The notes beneath the pieces were generated by a model. The model made no database searches and had not been told where the DNA came from. It saw nothing but the letters and a program-made list of their open reading frames with translations. Positions 1,872 through 25,649 of a DNA stretch of 28,233 nt are shown here, piece by piece. The DNA comes from a virus, in IMG/VR virus record IMGVR_UViG_3300030430_003150, positions 1-28,233 of that record. One strand, given 5' to 3'. A program made the position numbers and the translations under genes. Within the stretch, counting starts at the first letter, position 1. Each line of letters opens with the position of its first letter.

Positions 1872-1900
1872 TGCAAAAAAATAATAAATTAACGTTATAT
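1872..1900 (+). promoter_or_regulatory. Candidate late promoter (site A), protease operon
   Basis: TGCAAAA (1872-1878) and CGTTAT (1893-1898), separated by 14 bases; CGTTATATA continues as at site C. The ATG at 1908 follows with only about 8 bases. No terminator was found between it and the tape measure gene. Confidence 0.55.
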
Positions 1901-1907
1901 AAATAAT

Positions 1908-3389
1908 ATGAAAATAGTCGAGTTAATTTTAGATGATGAAAACGAAAATTTTGTCGAAGCGATAAGCGTAGTCGAGCATCCGGCCATTGAGGAGGATTTC
2001 GTTGCATTAAAAGACCAAAAGCAATTTAATTTTGCCAAGCAAGATGAGGAGAAACGTTTGCTTGTTGGTGCAATTTTAACGCCAAATAAACCGATATTTA
2101 GGCGTAATAATGATGAGGATTATTATATTTATTTTAATCGCGATACGGTACGCCAGGCAAGCCAATTATATTTAAAAAAGGGTTTTCAAGCATCGGCAAC
2201 ATTAGAACACCAACAAAACGTTAGCGGTTTAACATTGGTTGAGTCCTGGATAGTTGAGGACCCCAAAATGGATAAAACTAATTTGTACGGTATGGATTTG
2301 CCAAAGGGTACTTGGGCCGGTGCAATTAAAGTCGATAACGATGATATTTGGGATAATTTTGTTAAAACGGGCAAAGTAAAAGGCTTTTCAATTGAGGGTT
2401 ATTTTGTTGATCGTGCCGACGCCAAACAAAAAGAAACGGATGAGGATTTGGCTAACGAAATGTTAAACGAATTAAAACAAGCGCTTGAGGGAGTTGAATT
2501 AGAAACGTTCAACGATTACCCGGAAGCAGCCGTAAACAATGCAAAACGTGCAATAAAATACAAAGAGGAAAAAGGCAGCGATTGCGGGACGAGCGTTGGT
2601 TGGACAAGAGCCGGGCAACTTTCGAGAAAAGAAAATATCAGCCGTTCGACGATTGCTCGTATGGCAAGTTTTAAAAGGCACCAACAAAATAAGGACGTGC
2701 CGTATGATGAAGGTTGCGGCGGTTTAATGTGGGACGCTTGGGGCGGGAGCGCCGGAGTTGAGTGGGCAATAAAAAAATTAAAACAAATTGACAAAGAAAA
2801 ATTAGAATACATTGAGGTCGACGAAAATTACGCAATAATTAACGACCGATTGGCATACGCAACAAAAGAACAGGCAGAAAAAATCGCCAAGGATATTGGT
2901 TGCGAAGGGCATCACGTACATATTGAAAATGATAAGGAGTGGTTTATGCCGTGTAAACAACACGCGCTCGCAGAAATTGGACCACGTGGAGGCGTAAAAC
3001 GCAGCAAAAAAGCACCGGCAAGCGATACGCCAAATAAAAACCCAAAAGGCGAAGGCACCGCAAAAGGTGACGCGTCAACCGCCAGGGGTGCAAAGGTTAG
3101 TAAAAAGGACGAGGCAACACTACAAAAAAAGGTTGACGATTTTAACAAACGTTATAAAGATAAATTAGGTTACGGCGCAACGTTAGGCCAATTAAAAAGC
3201 GTGTTTCAGCGCGGCCTTGGTGCGTTTAATACCTCACACTCCCCAACGGTTAAAAGCGCCTCACAATGGGCATTTGCCAGGACCAACGCGTACCTTTATT
3301 TATTAAAAAATGGCAGACCGCAAAACGCGAAATATACAACCGATTACGATCTGTTGCCAAAAAAACACCCAAAATCAACTAAAAATTAA
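1908..3389 (+). CDS. XkdF-like prohead protease fused to three further modules
   Basis: Residues 1-165 resemble the XkdF/prohead serine protease family: VEHPAIEEDFVAL, a start LLVGAILTPNKPIFR, ATLEHQQNVSGLTLVESWIV and VKGFSIEGYF, with His/Ser candidates for catalysis. Residues about 205-300 form a second module with a CGTSVGWTRAGQLSRKENIS motif and DEGCGGLMWDAWGG. Residues about 300-355 are a small Cys/His-rich segment (GCEGHHVHI, then WFMPCKQH). The remainder carries GPRGGVKRSKKAPASDTPN and ends in YDLLPKKHPKS. The protease would mature the capsid; the roles of the other modules are unknown to me. It lies just after the tape measure gene and upstream of the scaffold and capsid genes, with a candidate late promoter directly in front. 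Protease call fairly sure. Confidence 0.8.
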   Translation: MKIVELILDDENENFVEAISVVEHPAIEEDFVALKDQKQFNFAKQDEEKRLLVGAILTPNKPIFRRNNDEDYYIYFNRDTVRQASQLYLKKGFQASATLEHQQNVSGLTLVESWIVEDPKMDKTNLYGMDLPKGTWAGAIKVDNDDIWDNFVKTGKVKGFSIEGYFVDRADAKQKETDEDLANEMLNELKQALEGVELETFNDYPEAAVNNAKRAIKYKEEKGSDCGTSVGWTRAGQLSRKENISRSTIARMASFKRHQQNKDVPYDEGCGGLMWDAWGGSAGVEWAIKKLKQIDKEKLEYIEVDENYAIINDRLAYATKEQAEKIAKDIGCEGHHVHIENDKEWFMPCKQHALAEIGPRGGVKRSKKAPASDTPNKNPKGEGTAKGDASTARGAKVSKKDEATLQKKVDDFNKRYKDKLGYGATLGQLKSVFQRGLGAFNTSHSPTVKSASQWAFARTNAYLYLLKNGRPQNAKYTTDYDLLPKKHPKSTKN

Positions 3390-3394
3390 TTAAA

Positions 3395-3688
3395 ATGAAA
3401 TTGTCGGAAAACACAAATGTAACACTTGACCTTAAAACAATTGGGATGATTATTGGTTTTACATTAATGTTGGCCGGCACGTATTGGAGTTTACAAGGTC
3501 AAATTAGTTTAGCAATGAGCGAACCCCAACCGGAGGTTAGTAAAATAGAATTTCAATACAAAGATGAATTGGTGCGCACAACAATTGAAAAAGTAGAAAA
3601 AGACGTCGTTAATATACAAGAGGATATTGATGAATTAAAAGAACAATTGGCAAAAATGGAGGAGCGCCTTTACAATAAATTAAGGTAA
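3395..3688 (+). CDS. Small membrane-anchored coiled-coil protein
   Basis: A 97-residue protein starting 5 bases after the protease gene. Residues about 15-36 (IGMIIGFTLMLAGTYWSL) are one transmembrane helix; after a short linker, residues about 50-95 are rich in Glu/Lys heptads and predict a coiled coil ending in EERLYNKLR. The topology (short N-terminus, one helix, charged helical tail) would fit a spanin-like or membrane-tethered assembly factor, but it is far from the lysis genes and no specific family is certain. Its stop overlaps the next start by one base (TAATG), so it is probably co-translated with the exported thioredoxin-like protein. Confidence 0.75.
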   Translation: MKLSENTNVTLDLKTIGMIIGFTLMLAGTYWSLQGQISLAMSEPQPEVSKIEFQYKDELVRTTIEKVEKDVVNIQEDIDELKEQLAKMEERLYNKLR

Positions 3689-4026
3689 TGTTTAAAACGT
3701 TTATATTATTGTTTTTATTTTGTGGTTTTGTTAATGCCCAAGATTATAAAAGTGATATAAGCGTTGTGCAGTATTCGGCAAGTTTTGTAAAAGATAACGA
3801 GTTGAATTTAAAAAAATTTAACGAGCATAATACATATTATTTTTACATTGAAACGGATAAAAAATTATTTGAAAACGACAAAATTAAGTATTTACCAACA
3901 ATTGTTATTTTTCAAAATGGTAAAGAAATTTTACGAATTGAGAGCGGGGTGAGTTTAAAACTCCCGGAGGATGCTGCAAAAAAAATAGATCGTAAATTAA
4001 ATGAATTATTACAAAATAAATTTTAA
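3688..4026 (+). CDS. Exported thioredoxin-like protein lacking the CxxC site
   Basis: A 112-residue protein with a clear signal peptide (residues 1-17, hydrophobic core ending VNAQ). The mature part reads as a small thioredoxin fold: a strand ISVVQYSASFV where thioredoxins have the WCxxC active site, a later strand with a YLPTIVIFQNGKEIL segment that matches the cis-proline loop and following strand, and a C-terminal helix. The active-site cysteines are absent, so redox catalysis is unlikely; binding or chaperone roles are more plausible. It sits between a membrane protein and a predicted outer-membrane protein, suggesting periplasmic action. The fold assignment is by pattern and the function is unknown. 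Confidence 0.72.
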   Translation: MFKTFILLFLFCGFVNAQDYKSDISVVQYSASFVKDNELNLKKFNEHNTYYFYIETDKKLFENDKIKYLPTIVIFQNGKEILRIESGVSLKLPEDAAKKIDRKLNELLQNKF

Positions 4027-4031
4027 AAAAT

Positions 4032-4157
4032 ATGATACGTTTATTAAAATACATAACAAAAAAATTAGAAGCCTTTAAGTGTTGGGTTCATATTAATTGG
4101 AATAACACACTCGAAAAATTAAAATCAAAATGTATATGCGAAAATTTGCCCTCATAA
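4032..4157 (+). CDS. Small hypothetical protein (41 aa)
   Basis: An ATG six bases after the previous stop opens a 41-residue frame, basic and with aromatic residues and Cys (FKCWVHINW, later CICEN), ending inside the next gene, which it overlaps by 28 bases. The tight packing (gap of 5 bases upstream) and full coverage of an otherwise empty stretch support it as a real gene. No family recognised; no signal peptide or membrane helix. Confidence 0.45.
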   Translation: MIRLLKYITKKLEAFKCWVHINWNNTLEKLKSKCICENLPS

Positions 4158-5212
4158 CCGCGTTATTATTTACAACAATTTGTAACGCTCAATTACTAAA
4201 AGAAATTTTTAAGTATTCAACTTTATACGGTTCATATACGGAGTCAAGCCCCTTATTTGTGCCGGATAGTTATTTTGTAACACAAGGCGGGGAGGTTATA
4301 AATACAACCCCGGAAGTAACAAACGATTTTAGTTATTCTTTTGGTATTCGCAAAATTGCGAGGTTTGGTTACGAAAATAAAGAAAACCGATTTTATGATG
4401 GCAGCGAACAAAACTCAAGTTTAAATAGTAATTTTGGGAATGTTAAAGGCCTGGAGTATTTGGTGCAATATACAAAGGGTAAACAACGCGGCCGTGAATT
4501 TGAAAGCGAACGTTACTTTTTAAGGTATTCGCGTAAATGGTGGAGTACTAAATTAGAAATACAAAAAAACGGTATTATTAATTTGAATTATAAAAGCGCT
4601 GATTTGCGTTTAAAAATACCAATTGGCAATAAATTTAATTTAAGTATTGGCGGCATTGTTAGAACACACAAACCTTACGGGTTTAACCCAATTGCAAATT
4701 ATTTAGAAACCTCGCCTTGGTGGGATTTGGCTTATGAATACGGTTATTATGATATTTATTACGGCATTGATTACGATAACGACGGGCAGTTAGATAACTT
4801 TGATTGGTATTGGGTAAATGAAAACGGGGACCGGGTTGCGGATACCGATCTGGATTTTAGGCGAAACATTTATCAAGATATTGTAAACGATTATAACCAA
4901 ACACAATTAAACAACATTGGAACGTTGGCAACGTTAAGTATTATTGCGGGTTCTGATTTTTATTATTACCGTGATAACTTTTGGTTGCATACTTGGGCCA
5001 ATATATTACCAAAACACAAACATATTAGCGGCGATAAAATTTACAGTTATAAAAATTATATTGGCTCGGATGATTGGGTTGATTATAATTACGGCGTGAT
5101 GTTTGGGTGGTTTATAACTAAAAAAATTGGTTTATTTACAGAAATTGAACAAACCCGGTTTTGGGATAAAAATTTACAATTCATAAAAGCCGGCGTAAAT
5201 ATACAAATATAA
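4130..5212 (+). CDS. Predicted outer-membrane beta-barrel protein encoded among structural genes
   Basis: A 360-residue protein with a typical signal peptide (MRKFALITALLFTTICNAQ). The second ATG (4136) gives the cleaner signal peptide and may be the true start. The mature part is rich in alternating aromatic/polar strands (YEYGYYDIYYGIDY, FFTEI-type ends) and finishes with a strand ending in a hydrophobic residue (FIKAGVNIQI), as outer-membrane barrels do. A DxDxDGxxD-like loop (YDNDGQLDNFDWYW) suggests calcium binding. No lipobox is seen. Location between protease and scaffold genes implies expression with the virion genes. Possible roles include altering the host surface (superinfection exclusion), assisting exit, or a virion component. 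I do not recognise a characterised family. Confidence 0.7.
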   Translation: MYMRKFALITALLFTTICNAQLLKEIFKYSTLYGSYTESSPLFVPDSYFVTQGGEVINTTPEVTNDFSYSFGIRKIARFGYENKENRFYDGSEQNSSLNSNFGNVKGLEYLVQYTKGKQRGREFESERYFLRYSRKWWSTKLEIQKNGIINLNYKSADLRLKIPIGNKFNLSIGGIVRTHKPYGFNPIANYLETSPWWDLAYEYGYYDIYYGIDYDNDGQLDNFDWYWVNENGDRVADTDLDFRRNIYQDIVNDYNQTQLNNIGTLATLSIIAGSDFYYYRDNFWLHTWANILPKHKHISGDKIYSYKNYIGSDDWVDYNYGVMFGWFITKKIGLFTEIEQTRFWDKNLQFIKAGVNIQI

Positions 5213-5370: not shown

Positions 5371-5399
5371 CGCAAAATAATTTAACGTACGCGTTATTT
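5371..5399 (+). promoter_or_regulatory. Candidate late promoter (site B), scaffold/capsid operon
   Basis: CGCAAAA at 5371-5377 and CGTTAT at 5392-5397, 14 bases apart, the same spacing as the sites before 1908, 7694, 19409 and 25654. Here the motif lies 34 bases before the ATG, leaving a normal leader. Promoter identity is inferred from recurrence. Confidence 0.5.
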
Positions 5400-5425: not shown

Positions 5426-6001
5426 ATGAGTAACGCAATTGATACATTAAATAGGGTCAAGGCCGTATTGGGTCTTGAGGTAAAAATGGAGCAATTAAAA
5501 CTCGAAAACGGCACAATTCTCGAAGCAAACAAATTTGAGGAGTCGGAGTCGGTTTTTATTGTTACCGAGGATGAGAAAGTTGCGCTCCCAATTGGTTCTT
5601 ATCAACTTGAGGACAACAGAATTTTAACAGTCGAGGAAGAGGGCGTAATTGCAAAATTAGCCGACCACGAGGAAGAGGAGGAAGTTGAAAAAGAGGAAAA
5701 AGAAACCGAGGAAGTTGACGCGCAATATGTTAGTAAAGAAGAATTTTCACAAGCATTGGAAGAAATTAAAGCAATGATTGACGAAGTAAAAGCGGGTTAT
5801 AAAAAACTTGCAGAAAACAACGAAAATTTAGGATCTGAAAAAGCAGACGAAAAAGCAGAATTACAAGCAGAATTAAGCAAACCGGCAGTACAACCTTTTA
5901 AACACTCCCCGGAAAAAACGGCAAAAAGACAAGTCGTTCAATTCGCGGAAAGAAGGCCAAAAAATATGTTGGATATTGTATTTGAAAAATTAAATAATTA
6001 A
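5426..6001 (+). CDS. Capsid scaffolding protein
   Basis: A 191-residue, very acidic, helix-rich protein directly upstream of the major capsid gene (5-base gap), the usual place for the scaffold. The N-terminal third has short beta segments (MEQLKLENGTILEANKF, VALPIGSYQLEDNRIL). The middle is Glu-rich (EEEEEVEKEEKE) and then predicted coiled coil (residues about 105-150). The C-terminus is basic (KTAKRQVVQFAERRPKN) and ends with a short amphipathic helix, typical of scaffold tails that bind the coat protein. Assigned by position and composition more than by motif. Confidence 0.78.
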   Translation: MSNAIDTLNRVKAVLGLEVKMEQLKLENGTILEANKFEESESVFIVTEDEKVALPIGSYQLEDNRILTVEEEGVIAKLADHEEEEEVEKEEKETEEVDAQYVSKEEFSQALEEIKAMIDEVKAGYKKLAENNENLGSEKADEKAELQAELSKPAVQPFKHSPEKTAKRQVVQFAERRPKNMLDIVFEKLNN

Positions 6002-6006
6002 GAAAA

Positions 6007-6996
6007 ATGAACACAAGAAAAATTAATTTAGCAGACGCCGACAATTCGATAAATTCGATAACGACCACGTACGCGGGTGAGTTTGCCGGAAAGTACATTT
6101 CGGCGGCATTATTGTCGGGTAAAACATTGGCCGAGGGTTCAATTACCATTAAGCCAAATGTAGCGTATAAAGAAGTCCTTAAAAAGGTGACAGATGATGC
6201 AAATTTCATAGTCGATGCAACTTGTGATTTTGCTAACGGTGGGACACCCGATACTTTTTCTCTAACGGAAAGAGTACTCGAACCGGCTCAATTTCAAGTA
6301 AATTTACAATTTTGTAAAAAAGATTTTATTTCGGATTGGGAGTCGATTGCAATGGGTTACTCAAGTTACAAGTCGTTACCGCCAAAATTCAGCGATTTTA
6401 TTTTGGGACACGTAGTGGCAAAAGTAGCGGAAAAAACCGAGCAAAACATTTGGCAAGGTGATGCAAATAATACCGGCGAATTTGACGGGTTTACAACATT
6501 ATTGGCGAATGATTCAGACGTACAAGATGCGGCTAATTCATCAGAAACCTCATTTACGGCGGGCAACATTAGAACGTTGCTCGGTAACGTTGTTGATAAA
6601 TTACCAAGCGCAGTTTACTCACAACCGGATGTAACAATTTATTTACCGACGGCAGCATTGCAACCATTTATTAGAGCAATGAGCGGTTTTGGTAATAATG
6701 GAGCCGGTGCGGCGGGTATCAACAACCAAGGTGACCTTTGGTATAACCAAGGTAACGCCTTATCATTTGAGGGTATTAAATTGCAGCACGCTCCAGGATT
6801 GCCAAGTACTAACATAGTTGCGGGACAATCAAGCAACTTTTATTTTGGTACGGGATTATTGGCAGATCATAACGAGGTTAAATTGATCGATTTAGCGGAT
6901 ATTGACGGGAGCCAAAATGTACGTTGTGTTATGAGATATTCAGCCGGGGTCCAATATGGCATCGGAAGCGATATCGTATTACTAACGTTGGCATAA
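6007..6996 (+). CDS. Major capsid protein
   Basis: A 329-residue protein following the scaffold gene and followed by a strong terminator, as expected for the most abundant structural gene. Segments such as FDGFTTLL, TIYLPTAALQPFIRAM and the late NVRCVMRYSAGVQYGIGSDIVLL end strand are compatible with the HK97 coat fold. No long N-terminal delta domain is present, in line with a separate scaffold gene. Composition is less Lys-rich than its neighbours, as usual for coat proteins. Fold assignment is inferred from size, location and strand pattern. Confidence 0.85.
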   Translation: MNTRKINLADADNSINSITTTYAGEFAGKYISAALLSGKTLAEGSITIKPNVAYKEVLKKVTDDANFIVDATCDFANGGTPDTFSLTERVLEPAQFQVNLQFCKKDFISDWESIAMGYSSYKSLPPKFSDFILGHVVAKVAEKTEQNIWQGDANNTGEFDGFTTLLANDSDVQDAANSSETSFTAGNIRTLLGNVVDKLPSAVYSQPDVTIYLPTAALQPFIRAMSGFGNNGAGAAGINNQGDLWYNQGNALSFEGIKLQHAPGLPSTNIVAGQSSNFYFGTGLLADHNEVKLIDLADIDGSQNVRCVMRYSAGVQYGIGSDIVLLTLA

Positions 6997-7628: not shown

Positions 7629-7659
7629 AAAAGGGGTTGTTTAGGCAACCCTTTTTTTT
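7629..7659 (+). terminator. Intrinsic terminator after tail tube gene
   Basis: Stem GGGTTG (7634-7639) with CAACCC (7646-7651), loop of six, extended outward by A-T pairs and one G-T pair, and followed by eight T (7652-7659). A strong rho-independent terminator; it belongs to a group of three sharing the GGGTTG/CAACCC stem in this window. Confidence 0.88.
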
Positions 7660-7660
7660 A

Positions 7661-7689
7661 TGCAAAAAAATTAATTATTTGCGTTATAT
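7661..7689 (+). promoter_or_regulatory. Candidate late promoter (site C), portal operon
   Basis: TGCAAAA at 7661-7667 and CGTTAT at 7682-7687, 14 bases apart, immediately after a strong terminator, where the portal operon needs a new promoter. The CGTTAT lies 12 bases before the ATG at 7694, implying a very short leader. The -10-like block is identical over CGTTATATA to site A. Confidence 0.55.
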
Positions 7690-7693: not shown

Positions 7694-8077
7694 ATGATAC
7701 TATTGAAACCAACAACCGAGGCACAAAATTTATATTTTATAAAACGGCCATTTATAACGGATTCGAGTAACGTTTCGCAATTAATACAAATTACGGACGA
7801 TATTACAAATAGCGATTTAACGTATTCAGTTGGTACCGCAACCGAGGGGGATTATACGCGTTTAATAATGAATATAACAGGCCTAAAAGAGGGGCGTTTT
7901 TATTCATTGGCAGTATTTGACAAACCGGCGGGCGGCGGTGATAATACGTGCGTTTATAAGGATAAAATTTTTGTTACAGACCAGGATATCGACCAGGTTG
8001 ACAATAAAAATTATACGATCAATGATGGCGAATTTGTAGAAAACACAACAGAAAATAACGATTACATTGTAATATGA
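7694..8077 (+). CDS. Putative virion-associated beta-sandwich protein (127 aa)
   Basis: The frame opens at a TTG (7637), but that falls inside the terminator stem; the ATG at 7694, just after the candidate promoter, is the sensible start and gives 127 residues. The sequence is strand-rich (LTYSVGTATEGDYTRLIMNI, then GRFYSLAVFDK) and ends in a short acidic tail (NTTENNDYIVI). It resembles a small immunoglobulin-like or fibronectin-like sandwich. The stop overlaps the portal start (ATGA). I associate similar small genes before the portal with flavobacterial phages, but the function is unknown. Confidence 0.65.
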   Translation: MILLKPTTEAQNLYFIKRPFITDSSNVSQLIQITDDITNSDLTYSVGTATEGDYTRLIMNITGLKEGRFYSLAVFDKPAGGGDNTCVYKDKIFVTDQDIDQVDNKNYTINDGEFVENTTENNDYIVI

Positions 8078-9921
8078 AAAAGAAACAACAAGGCAAAATA
8101 AATATAGTTAATTTGGCTAATTATGTAAGCCCGGATATACGTGTTGAAAAAAACAAAGATTGGGTAACGTTTGGGGATAACAATTCATATTTTGCATATT
8201 TATTGGACCGTTATACAGGCTCACCAACTAACAACGCAATTATTAACGGTATAAGCCAAATGATATACGGGAAAGGTTTGGATGCAACCGATAGCAATAA
8301 ACAACCAAACGAATACGCCCAGGCAATATCGTTATTAAAAAAGGAGTGCATACGTAAATTAGTTTACGATTTAAAATTAATGGGTCAATGCGCAATACAA
8401 ATTATATACTCAAAGGATAGAAAAAAAATAGCACGTATTGAACAAATGCCAATTGAAACGTTAGCAATGGAAAAATGCGACGAGGATGATGGCGAAGTAA
8501 AAGCATATTATTATTACCACGATTGGGAAAATTTTAAACGTGGAGACGAGCCAACACGTATCCCGGCATTTGGGACAAGTAACGAGTCAATTGAAATTTT
8601 ATATATAAAACCATACGTTGCCGGGCATTATTATTTTAGTCCGGCGGATTATGCGGGTGGTTTGCAGTATGCCCAACTTGAGGAGGAAATTGCGAATTTT
8701 CATAATTCAAATATCCTTAACGGTTTGGCCCCGTCAATGCTCATCTCGTTTAATAACGGCATACCAAACGAGGAGGAGCGTGAATTAATCGAAAGGCGTA
8801 TTTATGAAAAGTACTCCGGCAGTTCAGCAGCGGGCAAATTCATTTTATCTTTTAATGATTCTAAAGATAACGAGGCAAGTATTGAGGCCGTACAATTAAG
8901 CGATGCACACCAACAATATGAATTTTTGTCAACGGAGTCAATGCGTAAAATAATGGTTGCTCATAGAGTTGTATCGCCTATGTTGTTAGGAATTAAAGAC
9001 CAAACCGGTCTTGGTAATAACGCCGATGAATTGAAAACCGCCTCGACTCTTATGGATAACACGGTGATAAGGCCGTTTCAAGAGTTAATGTTGGAGGCAT
9101 TTGATCGCATTTTGGCATATAACGGAATATCCTTAAACCTATATTTTAAAACATTGCAACCGTTAGAATTTACAGAAATTGACTCGGAGTTGGTTGATGA
9201 CGAAACGCAAGAAGAGGAAACGGGCGTAAAAATGAGTAATAATCATTTAGAATTAAACCAGGAAGAGCAAAACATATTATTTGAAAATTTAAAAACAAGT
9301 GAATTAAACAACGATTGGGAGTTTGTAGACAAACGAAATGTTGAGGAGGATATGATTTCTCACGAGGATTGGGCAACGATTTGTATTGAACCCAAACAAA
9401 ATTTTGTTACTGAATTAGCCGGCAAGGTTATACCGCAAAGGCGTAAACAAAATGAAAATACTTTTTCATATTTGGATAAAAGTTTTTACCGTGTACGTTA
9501 TAGATATAAGGCAGCACGTGCAAGCGGCAACTCACGCGATTTTTGTTCGCGTATGATGACCCGTTTTGGCAGCGATGGCAAACCGGCCGTTTACCGTATT
9601 GAGGATATTGACGCTGCAAGCAAAAGCGGCGTAAATAGACAATTTGGGCATAAACAAAAGCCGTACGATTTGTTTCGTTGGAAAGGCGGTCCGTATTGTC
9701 ACCACGTTTGGGAGGCGGTATTATACCGTTTAAAAGATAAAACAAAACCAAGTAAATTTTTGCGCAACTATCAAGAAACGGGCAGCATACCGAAAACATA
9801 TAAACCAACGCCTTACGGTTTTAGGGATTCAACAATACCTCCGGTTGATATGGAATACGGCGGGCATCACCCTAATTGGATAGCGAGCGTAAATAGTAAT
9901 AAACGAAAAAGAAAAAAGTAA
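8074..9921 (+). CDS. Portal protein with C-terminal extra domain
   Basis: A 615-residue protein. Residues about 1-365 follow the portal pattern: an N-terminal SYFAYLLDRYTGSPTNNAII helix, WENFKRGDEPTRIPAF, and the stem-region stretch MVAHRVVSPMLLGIKDQTGLG followed by NADELKTASTLMDNTVIRPFQ. The portal forms the dodecameric DNA entry ring. From about residue 455 a separate domain begins (FSYLDKSFYRVRYRYK, FCSRMM, YRIEDIDAAS, RWKGGPYCHHVWEAV) with conserved-looking Cys/His residues, perhaps metal-binding, and a basic end KRKRKK. The linker region (about 366-450) is acidic. Portal identity is fairly secure; the extra domain is not recognised. Confidence 0.82.
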   Translation: MKKKQQGKINIVNLANYVSPDIRVEKNKDWVTFGDNNSYFAYLLDRYTGSPTNNAIINGISQMIYGKGLDATDSNKQPNEYAQAISLLKKECIRKLVYDLKLMGQCAIQIIYSKDRKKIARIEQMPIETLAMEKCDEDDGEVKAYYYYHDWENFKRGDEPTRIPAFGTSNESIEILYIKPYVAGHYYFSPADYAGGLQYAQLEEEIANFHNSNILNGLAPSMLISFNNGIPNEEERELIERRIYEKYSGSSAAGKFILSFNDSKDNEASIEAVQLSDAHQQYEFLSTESMRKIMVAHRVVSPMLLGIKDQTGLGNNADELKTASTLMDNTVIRPFQELMLEAFDRILAYNGISLNLYFKTLQPLEFTEIDSELVDDETQEEETGVKMSNNHLELNQEEQNILFENLKTSELNNDWEFVDKRNVEEDMISHEDWATICIEPKQNFVTELAGKVIPQRRKQNENTFSYLDKSFYRVRYRYKAARASGNSRDFCSRMMTRFGSDGKPAVYRIEDIDAASKSGVNRQFGHKQKPYDLFRWKGGPYCHHVWEAVLYRLKDKTKPSKFLRNYQETGSIPKTYKPTPYGFRDSTIPPVDMEYGGHHPNWIASVNSNKRKRKK

Positions 9922-13753: not shown

Positions 13754-13796
13754 AAGGCGCAGCAATTTCTTTTTTTGTTTGCGCCTTCTTTTTTTT
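13754..13796 (+). terminator. Hairpin terminator, second of two
   Basis: AAGGCGCA (13754-13761) pairs with TGCGCCTT (13780-13787), 18-base T-rich loop, then C and eight T. It insulates the NinG-like gene from the next unit; its T tract ends within the upstream box of the following promoter. Confidence 0.72.
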
Positions 13797-13825
13797 GGTT
13801 ATATTAACATTTTTTTATATCTTTG
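13794..13825 (+). promoter_or_regulatory. Host-type (Bacteroidota) promoter before the replication genes
   Basis: TTTG (13794-13797), 20 bases, then TATCTTTG (13818-13825), which fits the Bacteroidota primary sigma consensus TTTG-N19/20-TAnnTTTG. It is directly downstream of two terminators and 27 bases before the ATG at 13853. It shares an AGTATTAACAATAAAA-like stretch with the promoters at 23022 and 24645. Confidence 0.82.
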
Positions 13826-14830: not shown

Positions 14831-15745
14831 ATGCTTATAAACGTAAATAAAACAATTGAACACCTCGACAAAATCAGATCCGGAAAAATTAAAGAAGGGT
14901 TAAAATTAGAAATACCGGAAATAGACCAATTTATAAGGTTTAAACCAACAAATTTTAACGTTATATTGGGTCACGCCAACGTTGGTAAAACTACATTAAT
15001 TTTATATTTAATGCTATTATATACAAAAAAACACGGGTTACGTTGGTTGATATTTAGCAGCGAAAACGAGGCATATTCTATATTACGCAAACTTATTGAA
15101 TTTTTAGAATTACAACCTTTAAACAAAATTGATCCGAAAAATTATAAAAAACATATTGATTATATAAACAACCATTTTAAAATAATTGACTCAAGCGAAT
15201 TATATACATACAAAACATTATTAGAAACGGCAAACAATGTAAAAAGCGCTTGGGATTATAACGGTTTATTAATTGACCCGTATAATAGTTTAATAAAGGA
15301 CCACGCATTAATGAAGGGCGTCGGTTCACACGAGTACGATTACCAAGCAACAAGTGAAATACGCATATTTTGCAAAACAAAAAACGTAAGCGTATGGCTA
15401 AACACGCACGCCAATACAAACGCATTACGTATTAAACACCCTATCGGACACGATTTCGCGGGCCATCCAATACCGCCGCTCGCCTCGGATGTTGAAGGTG
15501 GCGGCAAATTCGTAAACCGAAGCGATGATTTTTGGGTGATACATAGGTACCTCCAACACCCAACCGATTGGGTTAATTCGGCTATACACGTACGAAAGGT
15601 TAAAGAAGTTGAAACAGGCGGCAGACCGACTCCAATTGATGAACCTATAAAATTAAGCAGCATACCCAACAACGTTGGTTTTGAAATTAACGGAAAGCGG
15701 CTTTTAGAAATACCTTTAAAGGATAAAGATGTTGTACCGTTTTGA
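14831..15745 (+). CDS. RecA-fold ATPase, probable replicative helicase or helicase-like
   Basis: A 304-residue protein with a Walker A motif GHANVGKTT (about residues 47-55) after FNVILG, a Walker B-like strand GLLIDPYNSL (D149), and a later strand VSVWLNTHANT (residues about 190-200) like the sensor region of RecA/DnaB/RadA ATPases. It is shorter than full DnaB and lacks a zinc domain. It is preceded by the SSB-like gene and followed by the sigma gene. The last residues (DKDVVPF) also resemble an SSB-type tail. Most likely a DNA unwinding or strand-annealing motor; a DnaB-type helicase core is preferred but not proven. Confidence 0.78.
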   Translation: MLINVNKTIEHLDKIRSGKIKEGLKLEIPEIDQFIRFKPTNFNVILGHANVGKTTLILYLMLLYTKKHGLRWLIFSSENEAYSILRKLIEFLELQPLNKIDPKNYKKHIDYINNHFKIIDSSELYTYKTLLETANNVKSAWDYNGLLIDPYNSLIKDHALMKGVGSHEYDYQATSEIRIFCKTKNVSVWLNTHANTNALRIKHPIGHDFAGHPIPPLASDVEGGGKFVNRSDDFWVIHRYLQHPTDWVNSAIHVRKVKEVETGGRPTPIDEPIKLSSIPNNVGFEINGKRLLEIPLKDKDVVPF

Positions 15746-15894
15746 AAAATGGAGTCCACATAAAACAAGTATTTATTGCCGGCGTAATGGTTGGCGTTTT
15801 ATACGACGAATTTTATGAATACGAAACAGGCCGAAATCTAAAAATTATAACATTATGTTTTTTTGTAATTGGCATCCAAGTAATTTTATGGTAA
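15742..15894 (+). CDS. Small two-helix membrane protein (50 aa, TTG start)
   Basis: A TTG (15742) overlapping the previous stop opens a 50-residue frame; the ATG at 15787 would give 35 residues and lose the first hydrophobic segment. The longer form has IKQVFIAGVMVGVLY, a charged loop (EFYEYETGRN) and a second helix (IITLCFFVIGIQVIL), ending at W then TAA, which overlaps the sigma start (ATGGTAA). I associate this topology with small phage proteins of Bacteroidota. The TTG choice is favoured but uncertain. Confidence 0.5.
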   Translation: MKNGVHIKQVFIAGVMVGVLYDEFYEYETGRNLKIITLCFFVIGIQVILW

Positions 15895-16376
15895 ACGTTT
15901 TGAAAATACTCGCAAAATCTCATAAACGTTGGGTAACAATTGCCCGGTCTTTTGGCCTGGATGCTGAAGCGGAGGACCTGGTTCAAGATATGTATTTGAA
16001 AGTACACGCGTGGCAAGGGCGTTATGATAAAACATTAATGTATAATGAAACGGAGGTAAATTATTATTTTGTATTTATAGTTTTAAAAAATTTGTTTAAC
16101 GACAAAATGCGCAAAAATAAAAAAACAGTACGCGAGCGCAATAACTATTTAAACAAAACAACGCAGCCTCATAATTTAGAGTATAATGAACAATTAAACG
16201 AAATTAAAAAAGAAATAAAATCTTGGCATTTGTACGATCGTAAAATTTACGAGTTAATTTACCAAGAGGGTTTTTCAATGTTGGAGTTATCAAAAAAAAC
16301 CGGCATTGACTATTATTCTATTTATAGAACAAAAAATAAAATTGATAAACTATTATATAAAATTCTAAACAAATGA
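15888..16376 (+). CDS. ECF-like sigma-70 family RNA polymerase sigma factor
   Basis: The frame can be extended upstream to 15855, but the ATG at 15888, overlapping the previous stop, gives a cleaner 162-residue protein. It shows region 2 (AEAEDLVQDMYLKVHAW, residues about 25-45; the core-binding and -10-recognition helix) and region 4 (YDRKIYELIYQEGFSMLEL and YYSIYRTKNKIDKLL, a helix-turn-helix for -35 recognition), with a basic linker containing DKMRKNKK. Length and layout fit ECF/group-4 sigma factors. It probably directs host RNA polymerase to phage promoters, see the recurring motif before late genes. Encoded in the early region; its stop overlaps the next start (ATGA). Confidence 0.85.
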   Translation: MVNVLKILAKSHKRWVTIARSFGLDAEAEDLVQDMYLKVHAWQGRYDKTLMYNETEVNYYFVFIVLKNLFNDKMRKNKKTVRERNNYLNKTTQPHNLEYNEQLNEIKKEIKSWHLYDRKIYELIYQEGFSMLELSKKTGIDYYSIYRTKNKIDKLLYKILNK

Positions 16377-17837: not shown

Positions 17838-17868
17838 TTTGTTAATATAAATTTAATTTATATATTTG
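17838..17868 (+). promoter_or_regulatory. Host-type (Bacteroidota) promoter
   Basis: TTTG (17838-17841), 19 bases, then TATATTTG (17861-17868), a full fit to TTTG-N19-TAnnTTTG. It sits just after the nuclease stop and 18 bases before the ATG at 17886, so it begins the recombination/origin unit. Confidence 0.85.
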
Positions 17869-18194: not shown

Positions 18195-18970
18195 AAATGA
18201 TTACATTGTTAGACGGCACCGTTTGGCGTTACAAGGATATTTTACCCAAATTAGATAACGACGATTTTTATTATGGCGAATTAGGCACAAACGCATTAAG
18301 CAGCAGTTCAATAAAATTACTTGTTGATAGTCCAAAAAAGTATTATTACGTTACAAATTACGCACCGTTAGAAACGCAAGGTTTGCGTGATGGTAAATTG
18401 TTGCACCAATTAATCCTTGAAAACGACAAATTTGAAAAAAATATATTTGTTGACGTACAAAGTAAAAATACTAAAAAATACAAAGAGGCGCTAAAAAAAC
18501 ACGGCACGGTCTACACAATGAAAGAGCGAACAGATGCCGAACGTTTAGGCGATGCCTTACTTAAAAACGATTACGCCGTATCACTATTAAAAAACGCACG
18601 TTTTGAAGTTGCCGAGATTGGTTATGTTAATGACTGGATATTTAGAGGCAAGGCGGATATTTTAGGCGAGGGCGGTACTATTGTTGATATTAAAACAACC
18701 ACGGATATCAAAGGTTTTAAATATGCCGCTAATAAATACGGTTACGATATACAAGCATATATTTATTGCCAATTGTTTAACGTTAATTATTTTGATTTTA
18801 AATTTTTGGTTTTGGATAAAGGGAGTTTGGATATTGGAATTTTTGAAGTTACCGAGGAGACCTATTTACGCGGAAAAGAAAAAACCGAAATTGGTATAAA
18901 ACGTTACGAGGATTGGTTTACTAAAGGCGAGGTAAATTTAGATAACTATTATATTAAAGATATTATATGA
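18191..18970 (+). CDS. RecE-like exonuclease VIII-type PD-(D/E)XK nuclease
   Basis: A 259-residue protein with the layout of phage exonuclease VIII-like PD-(D/E)XK proteins: an N-terminal ALSSSSIKLLVDSPKKYYY helix, GLRDGKLLHQLIL with His, then FRGKADILG (Asp), IVDIKTTTD (Asp-x-Lys) and YDIQAYIYCQLF (Gln-x-x-x-Tyr). These are the expected catalytic residues for processive 5'-3' digestion. Such enzymes resect double-strand ends for recombination by strand annealing; an annealing partner may be the ssDNA-binding proteins upstream. Stop overlaps the next start (ATGA). Confidence 0.88.
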   Translation: MKMITLLDGTVWRYKDILPKLDNDDFYYGELGTNALSSSSIKLLVDSPKKYYYVTNYAPLETQGLRDGKLLHQLILENDKFEKNIFVDVQSKNTKKYKEALKKHGTVYTMKERTDAERLGDALLKNDYAVSLLKNARFEVAEIGYVNDWIFRGKADILGEGGTIVDIKTTTDIKGFKYAANKYGYDIQAYIYCQLFNVNYFDFKFLVLDKGSLDIGIFEVTEETYLRGKEKTEIGIKRYEDWFTKGEVNLDNYYIKDII

Positions 18971-19395
18971 GACAATTAGCAGCATTGGGCCGAACAATTA
19001 ATAAATTAGCGGGCGTCAACATTTATCAAAACACCAGGCACCGGCCAATTATAGAGGCAAGGAGTTTGTTTTCTGTTATTGCGTATCGATACCATAATTA
19101 TACATTTGAGCAAATTGCTAATTTTTTAATTAGCAAAGGAAAAACGAGCGATCATTCAAGCGTGTTACACGCGTATAAAAATTTTGATATGTACGCACAA
19201 TATAGCAAACACCTTATTGAATGGCTTGAGGATATTGTTGGCGGTACAAAAAATTTTAATAAACAACAATTAATAAAATTAGTAAACCATAAAATATCAT
19301 TATTGGAGGAGCGTGAAATAAACTTAATATACGATATCGTTGATAACCTATATTTAACAACATTGGAAGTCGAGGCCGAAAATGAAAACAAATAA
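18967..19395 (+). CDS. DnaA domain IV-like DNA-binding protein
   Basis: A 142-residue protein with a DnaA domain-IV-like helix-turn-helix: IIEARSLFSVIAYRYHNYT followed by FEQIANFLI and the signature-like SDHSSVLHAY (about residues 61-70), equivalent to the RDHSTVLHA motif that reads DnaA boxes. There is no Walker motif, so it is a stand-alone DNA-binding module with a helical C-terminal part (LLEEREINLIYDIVDNL). It might recognise a phage origin or compete with host DnaA. Last gene before the methyltransferase module. Confidence 0.78.
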   Translation: MRQLAALGRTINKLAGVNIYQNTRHRPIIEARSLFSVIAYRYHNYTFEQIANFLISKGKTSDHSSVLHAYKNFDMYAQYSKHLIEWLEDIVGGTKNFNKQQLIKLVNHKISLLEEREINLIYDIVDNLYLTTLEVEAENENK

Positions 19396-19404
19396 ACGTT
19401 ATTA
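19376..19404 (+). promoter_or_regulatory. Candidate late promoter (site E), terminase module
   Basis: CCGAAAA (19376-19382) and CGTTAT (19397-19402), separated by 14 bases as at the other sites; CGTTAT ends 6 bases before the ATG at 19409. The upstream box is the weaker match, and it lies inside the preceding coding end. Confidence 0.42.
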
Positions 19405-19408: not shown

Positions 19409-20605
19409 ATGAAGCCAAATTTATTTACAGTATTTAAAGAGAAGGTTAGTATTACAAAAATAAAACCAAACCCAAATAACCCGCGTATAATTAAGGATGT
19501 TAAATTTCGCAAATTAGTTAAAAGCGTGATTGACTTTCCGCAAATGTTAGAAATACGGCCAATTGTTGTAAATAAAGATTTTGTTGTATTGGGCGGTAAT
19601 ATGCGTTTAAAAGCCTGTATTGAAGCCGGTATAAAAGAAATATATATAATTAAGGTTGATTTGCCGGAGGCGCAACAAAAAGAATTTATAATAAAAGATA
19701 ACGTTGGTTTTGGTGAGTGGGATTGGGATGTATTGGCTAACGAGTGGGATAACCCGTTGTTAATTGAGTGGGGCCTGGATGTTTGGGATTTTGATAACGC
19801 AGATATTGAAATTGAAGGCAATATAGACGATGACGAAATACCCGAACAAATTAAAACGCGTGTTAAATTTGGGGAGGTTTGGCAGTTAGGCGAGCATCGA
19901 ATAGCGTGCGGCGATAGTACAAACCCCGAGCATATTAAAAATTTAATGAATGGTAAAACGGTTGATTTAATTTTAACAGACCCGCCTTATGGCGTGAGTG
20001 CAAGCGGCGGCCGTACCCAAACCGTAAAACGCGATAACATTAAAAAAATAGAAAACGACGATTTAAGAGGCGAACAATTAATAAAATTTTTAACAAACGC
20101 ATTTAAACAAATACCATTAAAAGACAAAACAAACATTTACATTTTTTACGATCAGAAAACCCAGGCCGAATTTATAACGGCAATAAAACAATGCAATTGG
20201 GAATTTATAAGGACGTTAATTTGGAATAAAAACAGTTTTGGCTTAAGCGGTAAAAAAGGGTACCGCCCCAAATATGAGATGATAGCGTATGCCGTAACGG
20301 ATAAAGATTATTTATGGTATGGCGACAATTCACAAGCGGACGTTATTGATAACGCCAGGGAAAAGAAAAGGCACGGCTCACACCCAACAGTCAAGCCGAT
20401 TGATTTGATGGTTAAACTAATTAAAAACAGTAGCCAAAAAAATGATATTGTAGTTGATATATTTTTGGGCAGCGGTTCGACTTTAATAGCGTGCCAAAAA
20501 ACAAAGCGCGTATGTTACGCAATAGAATTAGACCCGTATTATTGTGACGTAACGATTGAACGTTGGCAACAATTTACAGGCCAAAAAGCAAAACGATTGA
20601 TATGA
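19409..20605 (+). CDS. ParB-like domain fused to DNA methyltransferase
   Basis: A 398-residue fusion. Residues about 10-115 form a ParB/sulfiredoxin-type domain (PNPNNPRIIKDVKFRKLV, then VVLGGNMRLKACIEAGI). The rest is a beta-class amino methyltransferase: motif IV DPPYG (about residue 190), a WYGDN and HPTVKP region, then motif I-like VDIFLGSGSTL (about 350) and AIELDPYYCDVTIERW. The order (motif IV before I) fits the beta group, so N6-adenine or N4-cytosine is methylated. No restriction partner is seen, so DNA modification or evasion of host restriction is more likely. Stop overlaps the small terminase ATG (ATGA). Confidence 0.9.
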   Translation: MKPNLFTVFKEKVSITKIKPNPNNPRIIKDVKFRKLVKSVIDFPQMLEIRPIVVNKDFVVLGGNMRLKACIEAGIKEIYIIKVDLPEAQQKEFIIKDNVGFGEWDWDVLANEWDNPLLIEWGLDVWDFDNADIEIEGNIDDDEIPEQIKTRVKFGEVWQLGEHRIACGDSTNPEHIKNLMNGKTVDLILTDPPYGVSASGGRTQTVKRDNIKKIENDDLRGEQLIKFLTNAFKQIPLKDKTNIYIFYDQKTQAEFITAIKQCNWEFIRTLIWNKNSFGLSGKKGYRPKYEMIAYAVTDKDYLWYGDNSQADVIDNAREKKRHGSHPTVKPIDLMVKLIKNSSQKNDIVVDIFLGSGSTLIACQKTKRVCYAIELDPYYCDVTIERWQQFTGQKAKRLI

Positions 20606-20958
20606 GTAAACCGAACAAAACCGAACATAGTAAAAAAGCAATGATTGCAGCGTTAGAGCAAAGCCTCGGCGTTGTAACAACCGCTTGTAAAAAAACAGGG
20701 ATAGGCCGTACAACATATTACGATTGGTACAATTCAGATCCGGAATTTAAACGCGCAGTTGATGACGTTCAAAACGTGGCCCTTGATTTTGCCGAGTCTC
20801 AATTACATAGGCAAATCGCAGAAAACAACACGAGCGCAACTATATTTTATTTAAAAACTAAAGGCAAAGGTCGCGGGTATGTTGAACGAACCGAACACAC
20901 CGGCATTGAAGGGACCAAATTATTTGAGGTCGAAATAATAAAGAATGAGGACCGTTAA
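20602..20958 (+). CDS. Terminase small subunit
   Basis: The ATG at 20602 overlaps the previous stop (ATGA); an upstream extension to 20563 is inside the methyltransferase gene and is rejected. The 118-residue protein has an N-terminal helix-turn-helix (IAALEQSLGVVTTACKKTG, then GRTTYYDWYNSDPEFKRAV), an oligomerisation helix (DFAESQLHRQIAENNTSA), and ATIFYLKTKGKGRGYVER, the segment common to small terminases. It binds the packaging site and recruits the large subunit. It is not adjacent to the large subunit: a PP-loop gene intervenes. Confidence 0.82.
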   Translation: MSKPNKTEHSKKAMIAALEQSLGVVTTACKKTGIGRTTYYDWYNSDPEFKRAVDDVQNVALDFAESQLHRQIAENNTSATIFYLKTKGKGRGYVERTEHTGIEGTKLFEVEIIKNEDR

Positions 20959-21811
20959 TTCTTTGAGCGGCGGCAAAACCTCGAGTTATATTGCTAAACA
21001 TTACCCGGCCGATTATAATGTTTTTGCATTAGTTAGAACGACCGATAAAAACTGTATATACCCGGACAAAAAATTACGGCAAATTGTATCGGATAAATTG
21101 GGGGTTGAGTTTATTGGAACGTTAGAGGAGGATGTTATTATTCACACGATGCTTGACCTCGAGCAGTTTATAGGACAAAAAATAAATTGGGTTACCGGCG
21201 AGCCTTTTGATAACATAATAATAAGAGGCGATAAAAAATACTTACCAAATGTAACGCAACGCTTTTGCACGGTTGAGATGAAGTTAAAACCGATATTTAA
21301 TTGGTGGCTTAATAATTGCAATATGCAGCCAATAAAAACCCGCATTGGTTTTAGAGCAAATGAGACCAGGCGCGTAAATAATATGTTGGCCCGTTGCAAT
21401 GCTGAAGGTTTACTTGAACACAAATATATTATTGGTAAAAGTAAAAACGGCAAACGTAACAAATGGAAAACGGTCGGTTGGCAAAAGCCGGTCTTTCCTT
21501 TATTAAACCCTCCTATTTTTAAAGACCAAATTGAGGCGTATTGGAAAGGTAAGCCGGTACGTTTTGCGTACCTTAATAATTGTATTGGTTGTTTTCATAG
21601 AAATCCGGTATTATTACGTTATATGAGTGAAAAACACCCCAAAAAGTATCAATGGTTTATCGATCAAGAAGAGGATAAAGGTTACGGACATAAAGCAAAA
21701 AGAACGTTTAAAAACGGCACAACATACCGAGAAATTAAAAACAGTTTAAAACAAATGAGGTTTTTTGATGAGAATTTTACCGAGTGCGATTCGGGTTATT
21801 GTGGCTTATGA
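20945..21811 (+). CDS. PAPS-reductase-like PP-loop protein between the terminase genes
   Basis: A 288-residue protein whose start has the PP-loop SLSGGKTSSYIAK (residues about 6-18), the ATP-pyrophosphatase loop of PAPS reductase, DndC and related enzymes. The remainder contains FCTVEMKLKPI, a Cys pair CIGC (about residues 213-216), and an end with Cys residues (CDSGYCGL). The cysteines could bind a metal or Fe-S cluster. Related enzymes adenylate a substrate and transfer sulfur or reduce it, so nucleotide or DNA modification is possible. It overlaps both neighbours, which implies it is expressed with the packaging genes. Function unknown. Confidence 0.75.
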   Translation: MRTVNSLSGGKTSSYIAKHYPADYNVFALVRTTDKNCIYPDKKLRQIVSDKLGVEFIGTLEEDVIIHTMLDLEQFIGQKINWVTGEPFDNIIIRGDKKYLPNVTQRFCTVEMKLKPIFNWWLNNCNMQPIKTRIGFRANETRRVNNMLARCNAEGLLEHKYIIGKSKNGKRNKWKTVGWQKPVFPLLNPPIFKDQIEAYWKGKPVRFAYLNNCIGCFHRNPVLLRYMSEKHPKKYQWFIDQEEDKGYGHKAKRTFKNGTTYREIKNSLKQMRFFDENFTECDSGYCGL

Positions 21812-22959
21812 AAATAAAAACCAATATAGTATTTGAGCATTTAACAAACAGTAACGCCAAAATAATTGTTGAACAGGGCGGCACAAGAAGCGGTAAAACA
21901 TATAATATATTATTATGGTTATTATTAAGTTATTGCAGCCAAAACAATAATAAAACAATAACGGTCGTACGTAAAACCTTCCCGGCGGTTAGAGGTACCG
22001 TAATGCGCGACTTTTTTGAAATACTAAAAAGCAATAATATATATTACGAGGAGTTGCATTTAAAAACAACGCACGAGTATTTTATTAATACTAACCGCAT
22101 TGAATTTATATCCTTGGACCAACCTACAAAAATACGAGGCCGTAAACGTGATGTATTATTTATTAATGAATGTAACGAATTAAACTTTGAGGATTGGCAA
22201 CAACTGATATTTAGAACCACGGAAAAAATTATAATTGATTACAACCCAAGTGACGAGTTTCATTGGATATATGATAAAGTATTAACGCGGGATGATGTTG
22301 AATTTTTTAAAACCACGTATAAAGATAACCCCTTTTTGGAGGATGTTGTTGTTAAAGAAATTGAACGTTTACAAAACATTGACGACAATTATTGGCGTGT
22401 TTATGGTTTGGGCGAACGCGGGCAAAACAGATCGTTAATTTTTAATTTTAATACAATTAAAGAAATACCGCCAACCGCTAAATTAATATCCAAGGGCCTT
22501 GATTTTGGTTATACAAATGACCCGACCGCTTTAGTTGAAACGTACACGGAGGGAGACAATATGTATATTAACGAGTTGTTATACCGTACCGGAATGACAA
22601 ACCAGGATATCGCCCGGGAGTTTACTAAATTAAATTTGGACCGCCGTGATGAAATTTGGGCGGATAGCGCAGAACCAAAAAGCATCGAGGAAATTTACCG
22701 CTTGGGGTTCAATATAAAACCAACGGCCAAGGGTTCGGTTAATATAGGCATTGACATAATACGGCGTTATAAATTATACGTTACCGAACGATCTATAAAC
22801 CTAATTAAAGAATTACGCAATTATAAATTTATTGAGGATAAAAACGGCCAATTAACAAACAAACCAATTGACGCGTTTAATCACGCAACAGATGCCGCCC
22901 GTTATAGTGTTGTAAACCGTTTGTCGCGCCCTAATTATGGCAAATATGCAATACGTTAA
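21808..22959 (+). CDS. Terminase large subunit (PBSX-type, terminase_3)
   Basis: The GTG at 21784 would extend the frame, but the ATG at 21808 overlaps the previous stop (ATGA) and gives 383 residues. The ATPase half has Walker A EQGGTRSGKT (about 22-31) and Walker B DVLFINE (about 115-121) with CNEL next. The nuclease half has GLDFGYTNDPTAL (D232), WADSAEPKSIEE (D286) and DAFNHATDAARY (D355/D362), the acidic residues of the RNase H-like site. It packages DNA into the head through the portal. It is a compact form of the family. Ends before a host-type promoter. Confidence 0.93.
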   Translation: MKIKTNIVFEHLTNSNAKIIVEQGGTRSGKTYNILLWLLLSYCSQNNNKTITVVRKTFPAVRGTVMRDFFEILKSNNIYYEELHLKTTHEYFINTNRIEFISLDQPTKIRGRKRDVLFINECNELNFEDWQQLIFRTTEKIIIDYNPSDEFHWIYDKVLTRDDVEFFKTTYKDNPFLEDVVVKEIERLQNIDDNYWRVYGLGERGQNRSLIFNFNTIKEIPPTAKLISKGLDFGYTNDPTALVETYTEGDNMYINELLYRTGMTNQDIAREFTKLNLDRRDEIWADSAEPKSIEEIYRLGFNIKPTAKGSVNIGIDIIRRYKLYVTERSINLIKELRNYKFIEDKNGQLTNKPIDAFNHATDAARYSVVNRLSRPNYGKYAIR

Positions 22960-23021: not shown

Positions 23022-23052
23022 TTTGGAGTTTATAAACAATTGTGTATATTTG
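23022..23052 (+). promoter_or_regulatory. Host-type (Bacteroidota) promoter, accessory cassette
   Basis: TTTG (23022-23025), 19 bases, then TATATTTG (23045-23052), a full consensus match. It lies 27 bases upstream of the ATG at 23079. Bases 23045-23075 form an imperfect direct repeat with 24668-24698. Confidence 0.88.
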
Positions 23053-23435: not shown

Positions 23436-23436
23436 A

Positions 23437-24617: not shown

Positions 24618-24644
24618 AAAAAAATAAAAAAAATTAAAAAAAAG

Positions 24645-24698: not shown

Positions 24699-24700
24699 CA

Positions 24701-24844
24701 ATGACATCACAACAAAAAAGTACAATTACAAGATTAGAAAATAAAGGATTTGAATATGTTTACAAAACCGGGGACTTGGTTTTAGTAGAAAAGGGAAGTC
24801 AAGCTTTTTATGTAAAAGCGGATGGTTCATATTTTGCCGAATAA
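24701..24844 (+). CDS. Small hypothetical protein (47 aa)
   Basis: 47 residues, first gene behind the 24645 promoter. It starts MTSQQKSTITRLENKGFEY and has two strand-like stretches (VYKTGDLVLVEKGS, then AFYVKADGSYF). Compact and soluble; no recognised motif. Strong leader and promoter support its reality. Confidence 0.62.
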   Translation: MTSQQKSTITRLENKGFEYVYKTGDLVLVEKGSQAFYVKADGSYFAE

Positions 24845-24861
24845 TTTAAAAATAATAAACA

Positions 24862-25077
24862 ATGAAACAAAATCAATACACAAATTTTATACGATCAAGC
24901 GCTAACGCGTTTATGTGGGAGGTATTTATGTTATGGGACCTCGAACATTTACAGGATTACCAAAGCCGCCTTTGGAGTAAACACGAGAAACTTAAGCCGA
25001 CCGAGTGGCAAGCGTTGGATATTTGCACGGCAATAATACAAATTAAAAAAGCAACCAATGGAAAACCCAAAAAATGA
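24862..25077 (+). CDS. Small hypothetical protein (71 aa)
   Basis: 71 residues, mostly helical, Trp-rich (MWEVFMLWDLEHLQDYQ, WSKHEKLKPTEWQALDI). It ends with a basic tail KKATNGKPKK. It overlaps a small membrane-protein gene by 20 bases. No family recognised. Confidence 0.62.
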   Translation: MKQNQYTNFIRSSANAFMWEVFMLWDLEHLQDYQSRLWSKHEKLKPTEWQALDICTAIIQIKKATNGKPKK

Positions 25078-25162
25078 AAGCGCTTATAAAATGGCGTTTT
25101 GGAGTTACGTTGGATTATTACTAACAACAATTTATTTAATTATTAAAACACACTTATTATGA
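25058..25162 (+). CDS. Very small membrane protein (34 aa)
   Basis: An overlapping ATG gives 34 residues with one transmembrane helix (WSYVGLLLTTIYLII) after a polar N-terminus. The stop overlaps the following ATG (TTATGAG at 25158-25164), a coupling used repeatedly here, and it fills an otherwise empty stretch. Small single-span phage peptides often inhibit host envelope functions, but there is no evidence for that here. Confidence 0.5.
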   Translation: MENPKNESAYKMAFWSYVGLLLTTIYLIIKTHLL

Positions 25163-25317
25163 GAAACAATAGAACACAACTCGATGATTTAAAAGACAAA
25201 ATTAGGCATTGCCAAAAAATGAAAGCCCAGGCAATAGACGAGGCCGATATTAAAAAATGGAGAAAATGGGAGGACCTGGAATGTGAGGCCCGTACAATTA
25301 TATATAACATTAAATAA
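25159..25317 (+). CDS. Small helical protein (52 aa)
   Basis: 52 residues, charged amphipathic helices (TQLDDLKDKIRHCQKMK, WRKWEDLECEARTI). Starts in an ATGA overlap with the previous gene. No motif recognised. Confidence 0.55.
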   Translation: MRNNRTQLDDLKDKIRHCQKMKAQAIDEADIKKWRKWEDLECEARTIIYNIK

Positions 25318-25323
25318 ACAATT

Positions 25324-25557
25324 ATGGATTTTTACTTAAACAATTTTACAACAATAGCCGGCTCGGACGGGACGGTATATTTAAGCGCAACAACTAACGA
25401 AGGCGAAAATTTAGATTTTGAAATTAACGCTTATGAATTATATAAGGATTTGCCGGCAATTTTTCAATTTACAAACAAGGCATATTCAGACGAACAAAAG
25501 CGCATAAAACAGGATCATAAAAATTTAGTAACAAAATTAAAAACACAAATAAAATGA
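25324..25557 (+). CDS. Small hypothetical protein (77 aa)
   Basis: 77 residues: strand-like start (FTTIAGSDGTVYLSATT, then LDFEINAYELYKDLPAIF) and a basic helical end (RIKQDHKNLVTKLKTQIK). Last gene of the accessory cassette, 23 bases before a strong terminator. Unknown function. Confidence 0.62.
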   Translation: MDFYLNNFTTIAGSDGTVYLSATTNEGENLDFEINAYELYKDLPAIFQFTNKAYSDEQKRIKQDHKNLVTKLKTQIK

Positions 25558-25580
25558 GAGATTAAATAAAATACCAAATT

Positions 25581-25611
25581 AAAAGGGGTTGCATGCGCAA
25601 CCCTTTTTTTT
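25581..25611 (+). terminator. Intrinsic terminator ending the accessory cassette
   Basis: GGGTTGC pairs with GCAACCC around an ATGC loop, bordered by AAAA upstream and eight T downstream. It separates the accessory cassette from the tail module; the candidate late promoter at 25621 lies 10 bases further on. Confidence 0.9.
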
Positions 25612-25620
25612 GTCTATTTT

Positions 25621-25649
25621 TAAAAACTTTTTTAAAACAAACGTTATAA
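25621..25649 (+). promoter_or_regulatory. Candidate late promoter (site D), tail module
   Basis: TAAAAAC (25621-25627) and CGTTAT (25642-25647), 14 bases apart as in sites A, B, C and E; the upstream box is a weak match but the -10-like part (AACGTTATA) equals site A. It follows a strong terminator and precedes the ATG at 25654 by a very short leader. Confidence 0.45.

Follow-up and report, generated by a model that had tools for sequence, protein, structure and literature searches.

The stretch of DNA analysed here, called the window below, is the whole 28,233-base IMG/VR virus record IMGVR_UViG_3300030430_003150 (36% GC), and the virus infects Bacteroidota bacteria. It carries five copies of a two-box motif, each in front of a unit of late genes, and a gene at 15888-16376 for a sigma factor like those of the extracytoplasmic function (ECF) class, which we propose as the reader of the five sites. 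These sites, their gene units, the hairpins and the host-type promoters described below, and the sigma gene all lie on the plus strand. The first site, TGCAAAA-N14-CGTTAT at 1872-1898, precedes the gene of a head-maturation protease (Peptidase_S78_2, 1908-3389; Pfam PF14550, 1.1e-16), with 15 nucleotides (nt) from the first base of its -10 box to the ATG at 1908. The second, CGCAAAA-N14-CGTTAT at 5371-5397, lies by the same measure 34 nt from the ATG of a unit at 5426-6996, which consists of a scaffold-like gene (5426-6001) and a capsid-like gene (6007-6996) assigned from family matches (PHROG_11320, 8e-36; PHROG_1623, virion structural, 9e-6), position and conservation. The other three sites stand 12 nt from their ATG: TGCAAAA-N14-CGTTAT at 7661-7687, before an open reading frame (ORF) at 7694 and the portal gene (7694-9921; portal PHROG_33693, 6e-103); CCGAAAA-N14-CGTTAT at 19376-19402, before a unit at 19409-22959 in which family searches found DNA methyltransferase, small terminase-like, PAPS-reductase-like and large terminase genes; and TAAAAAC-N14-CGTTAT at 25621-25647, before the ORF at 25654-26313, the first gene of the fifth unit. 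This last gene had been called a tail chaperone, which the family searches did not support, since its match is to a PHROG of unknown function (PHROG_32199, 4e-20).

All five pairs of boxes were found at the coordinates given in a preliminary description of this DNA, with a gap of exactly 14 bases in each, and its distance of 12-15 bases to the ATG in four of the five was reproduced by our measurements. As it had also noted, the sites often come right after a terminator: an intrinsic-terminator-like hairpin with a T run, read directly from the sequence, abuts site 7661 (hairpin at 7630-7659), and another (25581-25611) lies just 5' of site 25621. The -35 box of site 19376 sits inside the 3' end of the upstream gene. 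Exact matches to YGCAAAA-N14-CGTTAT number three in the window against 0.52 expected, a count reached by 2 of 100 shuffled sequences, and allowing one mismatch added none. When the window was ranked with a matrix trained without it, sites 7661, 1872, 5371 and 25621 took the top four places, and site 19376 came only 13th, outranked by several sites within ORFs. Further high-scoring sites at 9475, 12531 and 27505 were rejected because they are located within ORFs.

The motif is specific in its spacing and in its distribution. Among 162 related loci (1.7 Mb), exact TGCAAAA/CGTTAT pairs occur 17 times with the 14-base gap and 0-3 times with each other gap from 8 to 21. A scan of IMG/VR (2.9 million contigs) with TGCAAAA-N14-CGTTATATANATATG, given also as TGCAAAA-N14-CGTTATATAnATATG, returned 97 loci, compared with 3 for a 15-base spacer and 0 for a scrambled -35 box, and the full motif had no match in 84,980 bacterial and archaeal genomes (257 Gb). 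At 80 of the IMG/VR loci the ATG of the motif starts an ORF (median 200 codons), and the products of these ORFs include 62 scaffold, 8 ORF-7694 and 3 protease homologues.

In the relatives of clade A, the motif stands at the same five late slots (protease, scaffold/capsid, ORF 7694 and portal, methyltransferase/terminase, and ORF 25654), before structural and packaging units and not before early ones, with five late slots per clade-A genome. Counted from the first -10 base, the ATG follows at 12 nt in the majority of copies at every slot but that of the scaffold, where clade A mostly has CGTTAAA at 23-34 nt. At the protease slot, the motif is kept in every clade-A relative that has the slot. 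The two weaker sites are also recovered in this way: CGTTATA stands 12-16 nt 5' of the ATG at the methyltransferase and 25654 slots in nearly all clade-A relatives having them, with the methyltransferase slot conserved in G001-G005, G007, G008 and G010. The upstream regions of related phages bear out the recurring motif for all five units, and the weak pair owes its place in the set to conservation. The relatives also show weaker -35 boxes at these two slots, and G001, G004 and G005 all keep the weak box TAAAAACTTT at the slot of ORF 25654, as if promoter strength were graded among the late units. With a position weight matrix, 34 matches of at least 15 bits were found in 0.59 Mb of clade-A records (33 of them just 5' of an ORF) against one in 0.94 Mb of records whose sigma is of another type, the matrix having been trained largely on the clade-A records themselves; decoy matrices gave 2-6 matches in clade A. 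A de novo search on all clade-A upstream regions was pulled toward host-type promoters and A-rich start-codon contexts, and slots of named genes were therefore used instead. Three of the records probably represent the same phage in other samples, since the sigmas of L003 and L004 are identical and G050 carries the three strong sites of the window letter for letter.

The proposed reader is a protein of 162 amino acids with regions 2 and 4 (PHROG_1740, sigma, E=5e-9). Its start is likely at 15888, because alignments with related proteins begin at this point and the frame, where extended 5', overlaps a small ORF (15742-15894) in another frame, which may explain why this extension is conserved. 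The helices of the AlphaFold model fall into two domains, with a low-confidence linker at 82-94 between them and no region 1.1 or 3 (predicted local distance difference test, pLDDT, 81.7; predicted template-modelling score, pTM, 0.44). ECF sigmas were on top of a Foldseek search with this model (best 6dv9, SigL, 8e-4), and its -35 domain superposes on the solved structures 3hug and 3vfz with a root-mean-square deviation of 1.7-2.2 Å. Whole-chain template-modelling scores against solved ECF sigmas are low (0.3-0.4), because the model either leaves the relative placement of the domains uncertain or arranges them differently. The predicted structure is thus that of a two-domain ECF sigma. In an alignment with 22 relatives the protein shows 28-71% identity to them, and tblastn found no match in the annotated phage collection and no homologue in the contigs of bacterial and archaeal genomes.

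The sigma gene and the motif occur together. In records chosen by the motif alone, a sigma homologue was present in 14 of the 16 that are at least 20 kb long and in none of the 8 shorter ones. In 26 records that have both late slots and the sigma, the motif score rises with similarity of the sigma (rho 0.66) but not with that of capsid (0.18) or protease (0.08), and the partial correlation of motif and sigma given capsid is 0.69. Other clades have boxes of their own: G035 and L115 carry AAGTTATC, for example, and a variant -10 box, CGATATA, stands before four late slots of G041 (L220, L221) and, in L154, before the protease slot. Judged from these comparisons, the boxes appear to follow the sigma, above all its -35 recognition helix, and not the capsid and protease genes downstream. 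The suggestion that the ECF-like sigma at 15888 drives the late sites has therefore fared well in every prediction that could be checked at the level of sequence, namely spacer specificity, occupation of the same slots, boxes changing with the helix, and an ECF fold.

We consider it very probable that the five sites are late promoters read by the host RNA polymerase together with the phage sigma, and that their messenger RNAs (mRNAs) are leaderless or nearly so. Early and accessory genes would be transcribed by the host polymerase from host-type TTTG/TAnnTTTG promoters; the sigma would then be produced, and polymerase carrying it would transcribe the five late units. Region 4 of the sigma would recognise GCAAAA as the -35 box, and CGTTATA (-10) is where region 2 would open the DNA. 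We infer this binding, the late timing and the exact start sites, which in most units would lie about 0-3 nt from the AUG (itself 12 nt from the first -10 base). Because of this placement of the -10 box, most late mRNAs are expected to have no leader or almost none. In the scaffold/capsid unit a leader of roughly 15-22 nt would be retained, and site 5371 would thereby be unique among the five in giving a true leader. The near-leaderless layout had been described correctly, but it had been regarded as odd; it is a conserved property across the relatives and no peculiarity of this phage. Promoters of the host type (sigma-ABfr), which had been described as well, provide a contrast class. Matches to TTTG-N18-21-TAnnTTTG are present at 13794-13825 (TTTG-N20-TATCTTTG), 17838-17868 and 23022-23052, with the ATG 27, 17 and 26 nt 3' of the -7 box, respectively. 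The median distance to the ATG for host-type promoters in the same records is 20-25 nt, compared with most often exactly 12 nt for the late motif.

Several points weigh against this interpretation. First, the statistics of the window taken alone are weak: the excess of the three strong copies over shuffled sequence is marginal, and at up to three mismatches, the level that takes in both weak sites, there are 29 matches against 31 expected, so that counting within the window lends no support to sites 19376 and 25621. Second, the Pfam model Sigma70_r2 scores the window sigma at 21.5 bits, just below its cut-off of 24. Third, the expected start site is taken from the usual geometry of ECF promoters. 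Fourth, the motif score tracks terminase (0.70) and helicase (0.69) as well as it tracks the sigma, and phage ancestry therefore confounds the link between sigma and motif. Only a few contrasts break this confounding, and the clearest is that of G013 and G014, whose terminase and helicase are as near to those of the window as those of clade A are; their sigma helix reads YCSIKRT against YYSIYRT in the window, and their boxes are CCAGTTGT-like and TGTTATA at the protease, scaffold and ORF 7694 slots. Fifth, the recognition helix speaks for the link, since over all records canonical boxes occupy 60 of 75 slots with a -35 recognition helix of the form Y..[IL]Y, compared with 4 of 71 with other helices, but this count is favoured by the inclusion of records picked by the motif; without them it becomes 20 of 30 against 3 of 67 (hand-counted, G052 left out). 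Finally, G011 retains CGTTATA despite a different helix.

Among the alternatives, the one that survives best is that the motif is a two-part binding site of another phage regulator, an activator or a repressor, overlapping a promoter. An activator site could also take the form of a dyad of fixed spacing in front of late genes, and the ancestral confounding described above also leaves room for such a protein. However, the layout, with an A/C-rich -35 box and a CGT-type -10 box, is typical of an ECF promoter, and, as the ATG mostly follows at a constant 12 nt, a further promoter would have no space in between; we regard this explanation as unlikely. It is slightly less probable still that an ECF sigma of a flavobacterium-like host cell reads the sites while the phage sigma has another role, because the full motif is missing from the bacterial and archaeal genomes scanned and the boxes vary with the phage sigma among related phages. 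A third explanation takes CGTTATA-N5-ATG as a signal acting in translation initiation or otherwise at the mRNA level, with the upstream box incidental. The constant spacing from the start codon that most copies show would suit such a signal, but the upstream box is fixed at exactly 14 bases, scaffold units and some further slots have intact boxes at 22-34 nt from their ATG, no Rfam family matches, and two of the sites are directly behind terminators, where a new transcript is needed; this makes the explanation very improbable. That AT-rich DNA produced the spaced motif by chance, as the lack of excess over shuffled sequence at three mismatches might suggest, is refuted for the motif overall by the cross-genome counts and their controls and has a negligible probability.

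Compared with known systems, the window sigma shares its two-domain fold (as modelled) and similar length with bacterial ECF (group 4) sigmas such as SigL and SigH of Mycobacterium tuberculosis, sigma-E of Escherichia coli and SigW of Bacillus subtilis, which are its nearest folds in Foldseek, and the promoters predicted here likewise combine a CGT-type -10 box with an A-rich -35 box. Unlike the bacterial proteins, it is encoded by a phage and falls in a family of its own. The spacer is one or two bases shorter than that of the SigW type. Its proposed role resembles that of T4 gp55 and SPO1 gp28, phage late sigmas that redirect the host polymerase to late promoters. Unlike these, it belongs to another class, apparently reads a separate -35 box, and would use promoters set for leaderless mRNA in most units. 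The ECF-type motif SM6 of Flavobacterium psychrophilum (PMC9723704), unlike the window motif, belongs to a host regulon. In the literature searched, no report of these promoters or of this sigma was found.

The only annotated or cultured phages found with a related capsid (29%) and portal (36%) are the Nonlabens (Persicivirga) phages P12024L and P12024S (Inhavirus). In P12024L, gp35 matches Sigma-70 region 2 with 25.2 bits, above the Pfam cut-off of 24; it was located via the portal and capsid of that phage and not by tblastn. The de novo search did succeed for P12024L, as for the M group, and the unsupervised result was AACAAAA-N13-CGTTAATA before gp01, gp05, gp08, gp37, gp42, gp45 and gp46, in most cases with the ATG 12 nt away. 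Allowing at most one mismatch, AACAAA-N14-CGTTA was found 8 times against 1.8 expected, and none of 100 shuffles reached 8. P12024L differs from the window in its -35 box (AACAAAA), in a spacer shorter by one base and in a very divergent sigma. Its record has no annotated promoters.

Some further features of the window were also noted. The PAPS-reductase-like gene (20945-21808) sits between the terminase genes, and matches to it are rare among the relatives searched. No Pfam match was obtained for two ORFs at 3688-5212, which lie between the protease unit and the scaffold unit, and the protein at 18967-19392 has a sub-threshold Pfam match to a DnaA C-terminal helix-turn-helix (23.3 bits, cut-off 31.5). 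Rfam and transfer RNA scans gave no matches.

In Bacteroidota, Shine-Dalgarno sites are not used, and mRNAs lacking a leader are rare in the species studied. Leaderless mRNAs make up only 5.5% in F. psychrophilum (PMC9723704), leaders in Flavobacterium johnsoniae have a mean length of 33 nt with 87% longer than 10 nt (PMC6847099), and about 3.7% of leaders in Bacteroides thetaiotaomicron are shorter than 10 nt (PMC7366714). We tentatively suggest, as a possibility that is doubtful at present, that this phage lineage runs its late programme on leaderless mRNAs by means of its own ECF sigma, and that late translation may shift toward 5'-terminal AUGs. If this is true, late phage messages would be favoured at transcription and translation alike, in hosts with a few percent of leaderless mRNAs. 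As the near-zero leader is conserved, the translation question can be tested directly in the cultured phage P12024L. Since the boxes and the recognition helix both vary between clades, these phages offer a natural series for how ECF sigmas choose their DNA. The sites described here give a readable late-promoter code for a large, almost uncultured group of phages, paired with its probable reader protein.

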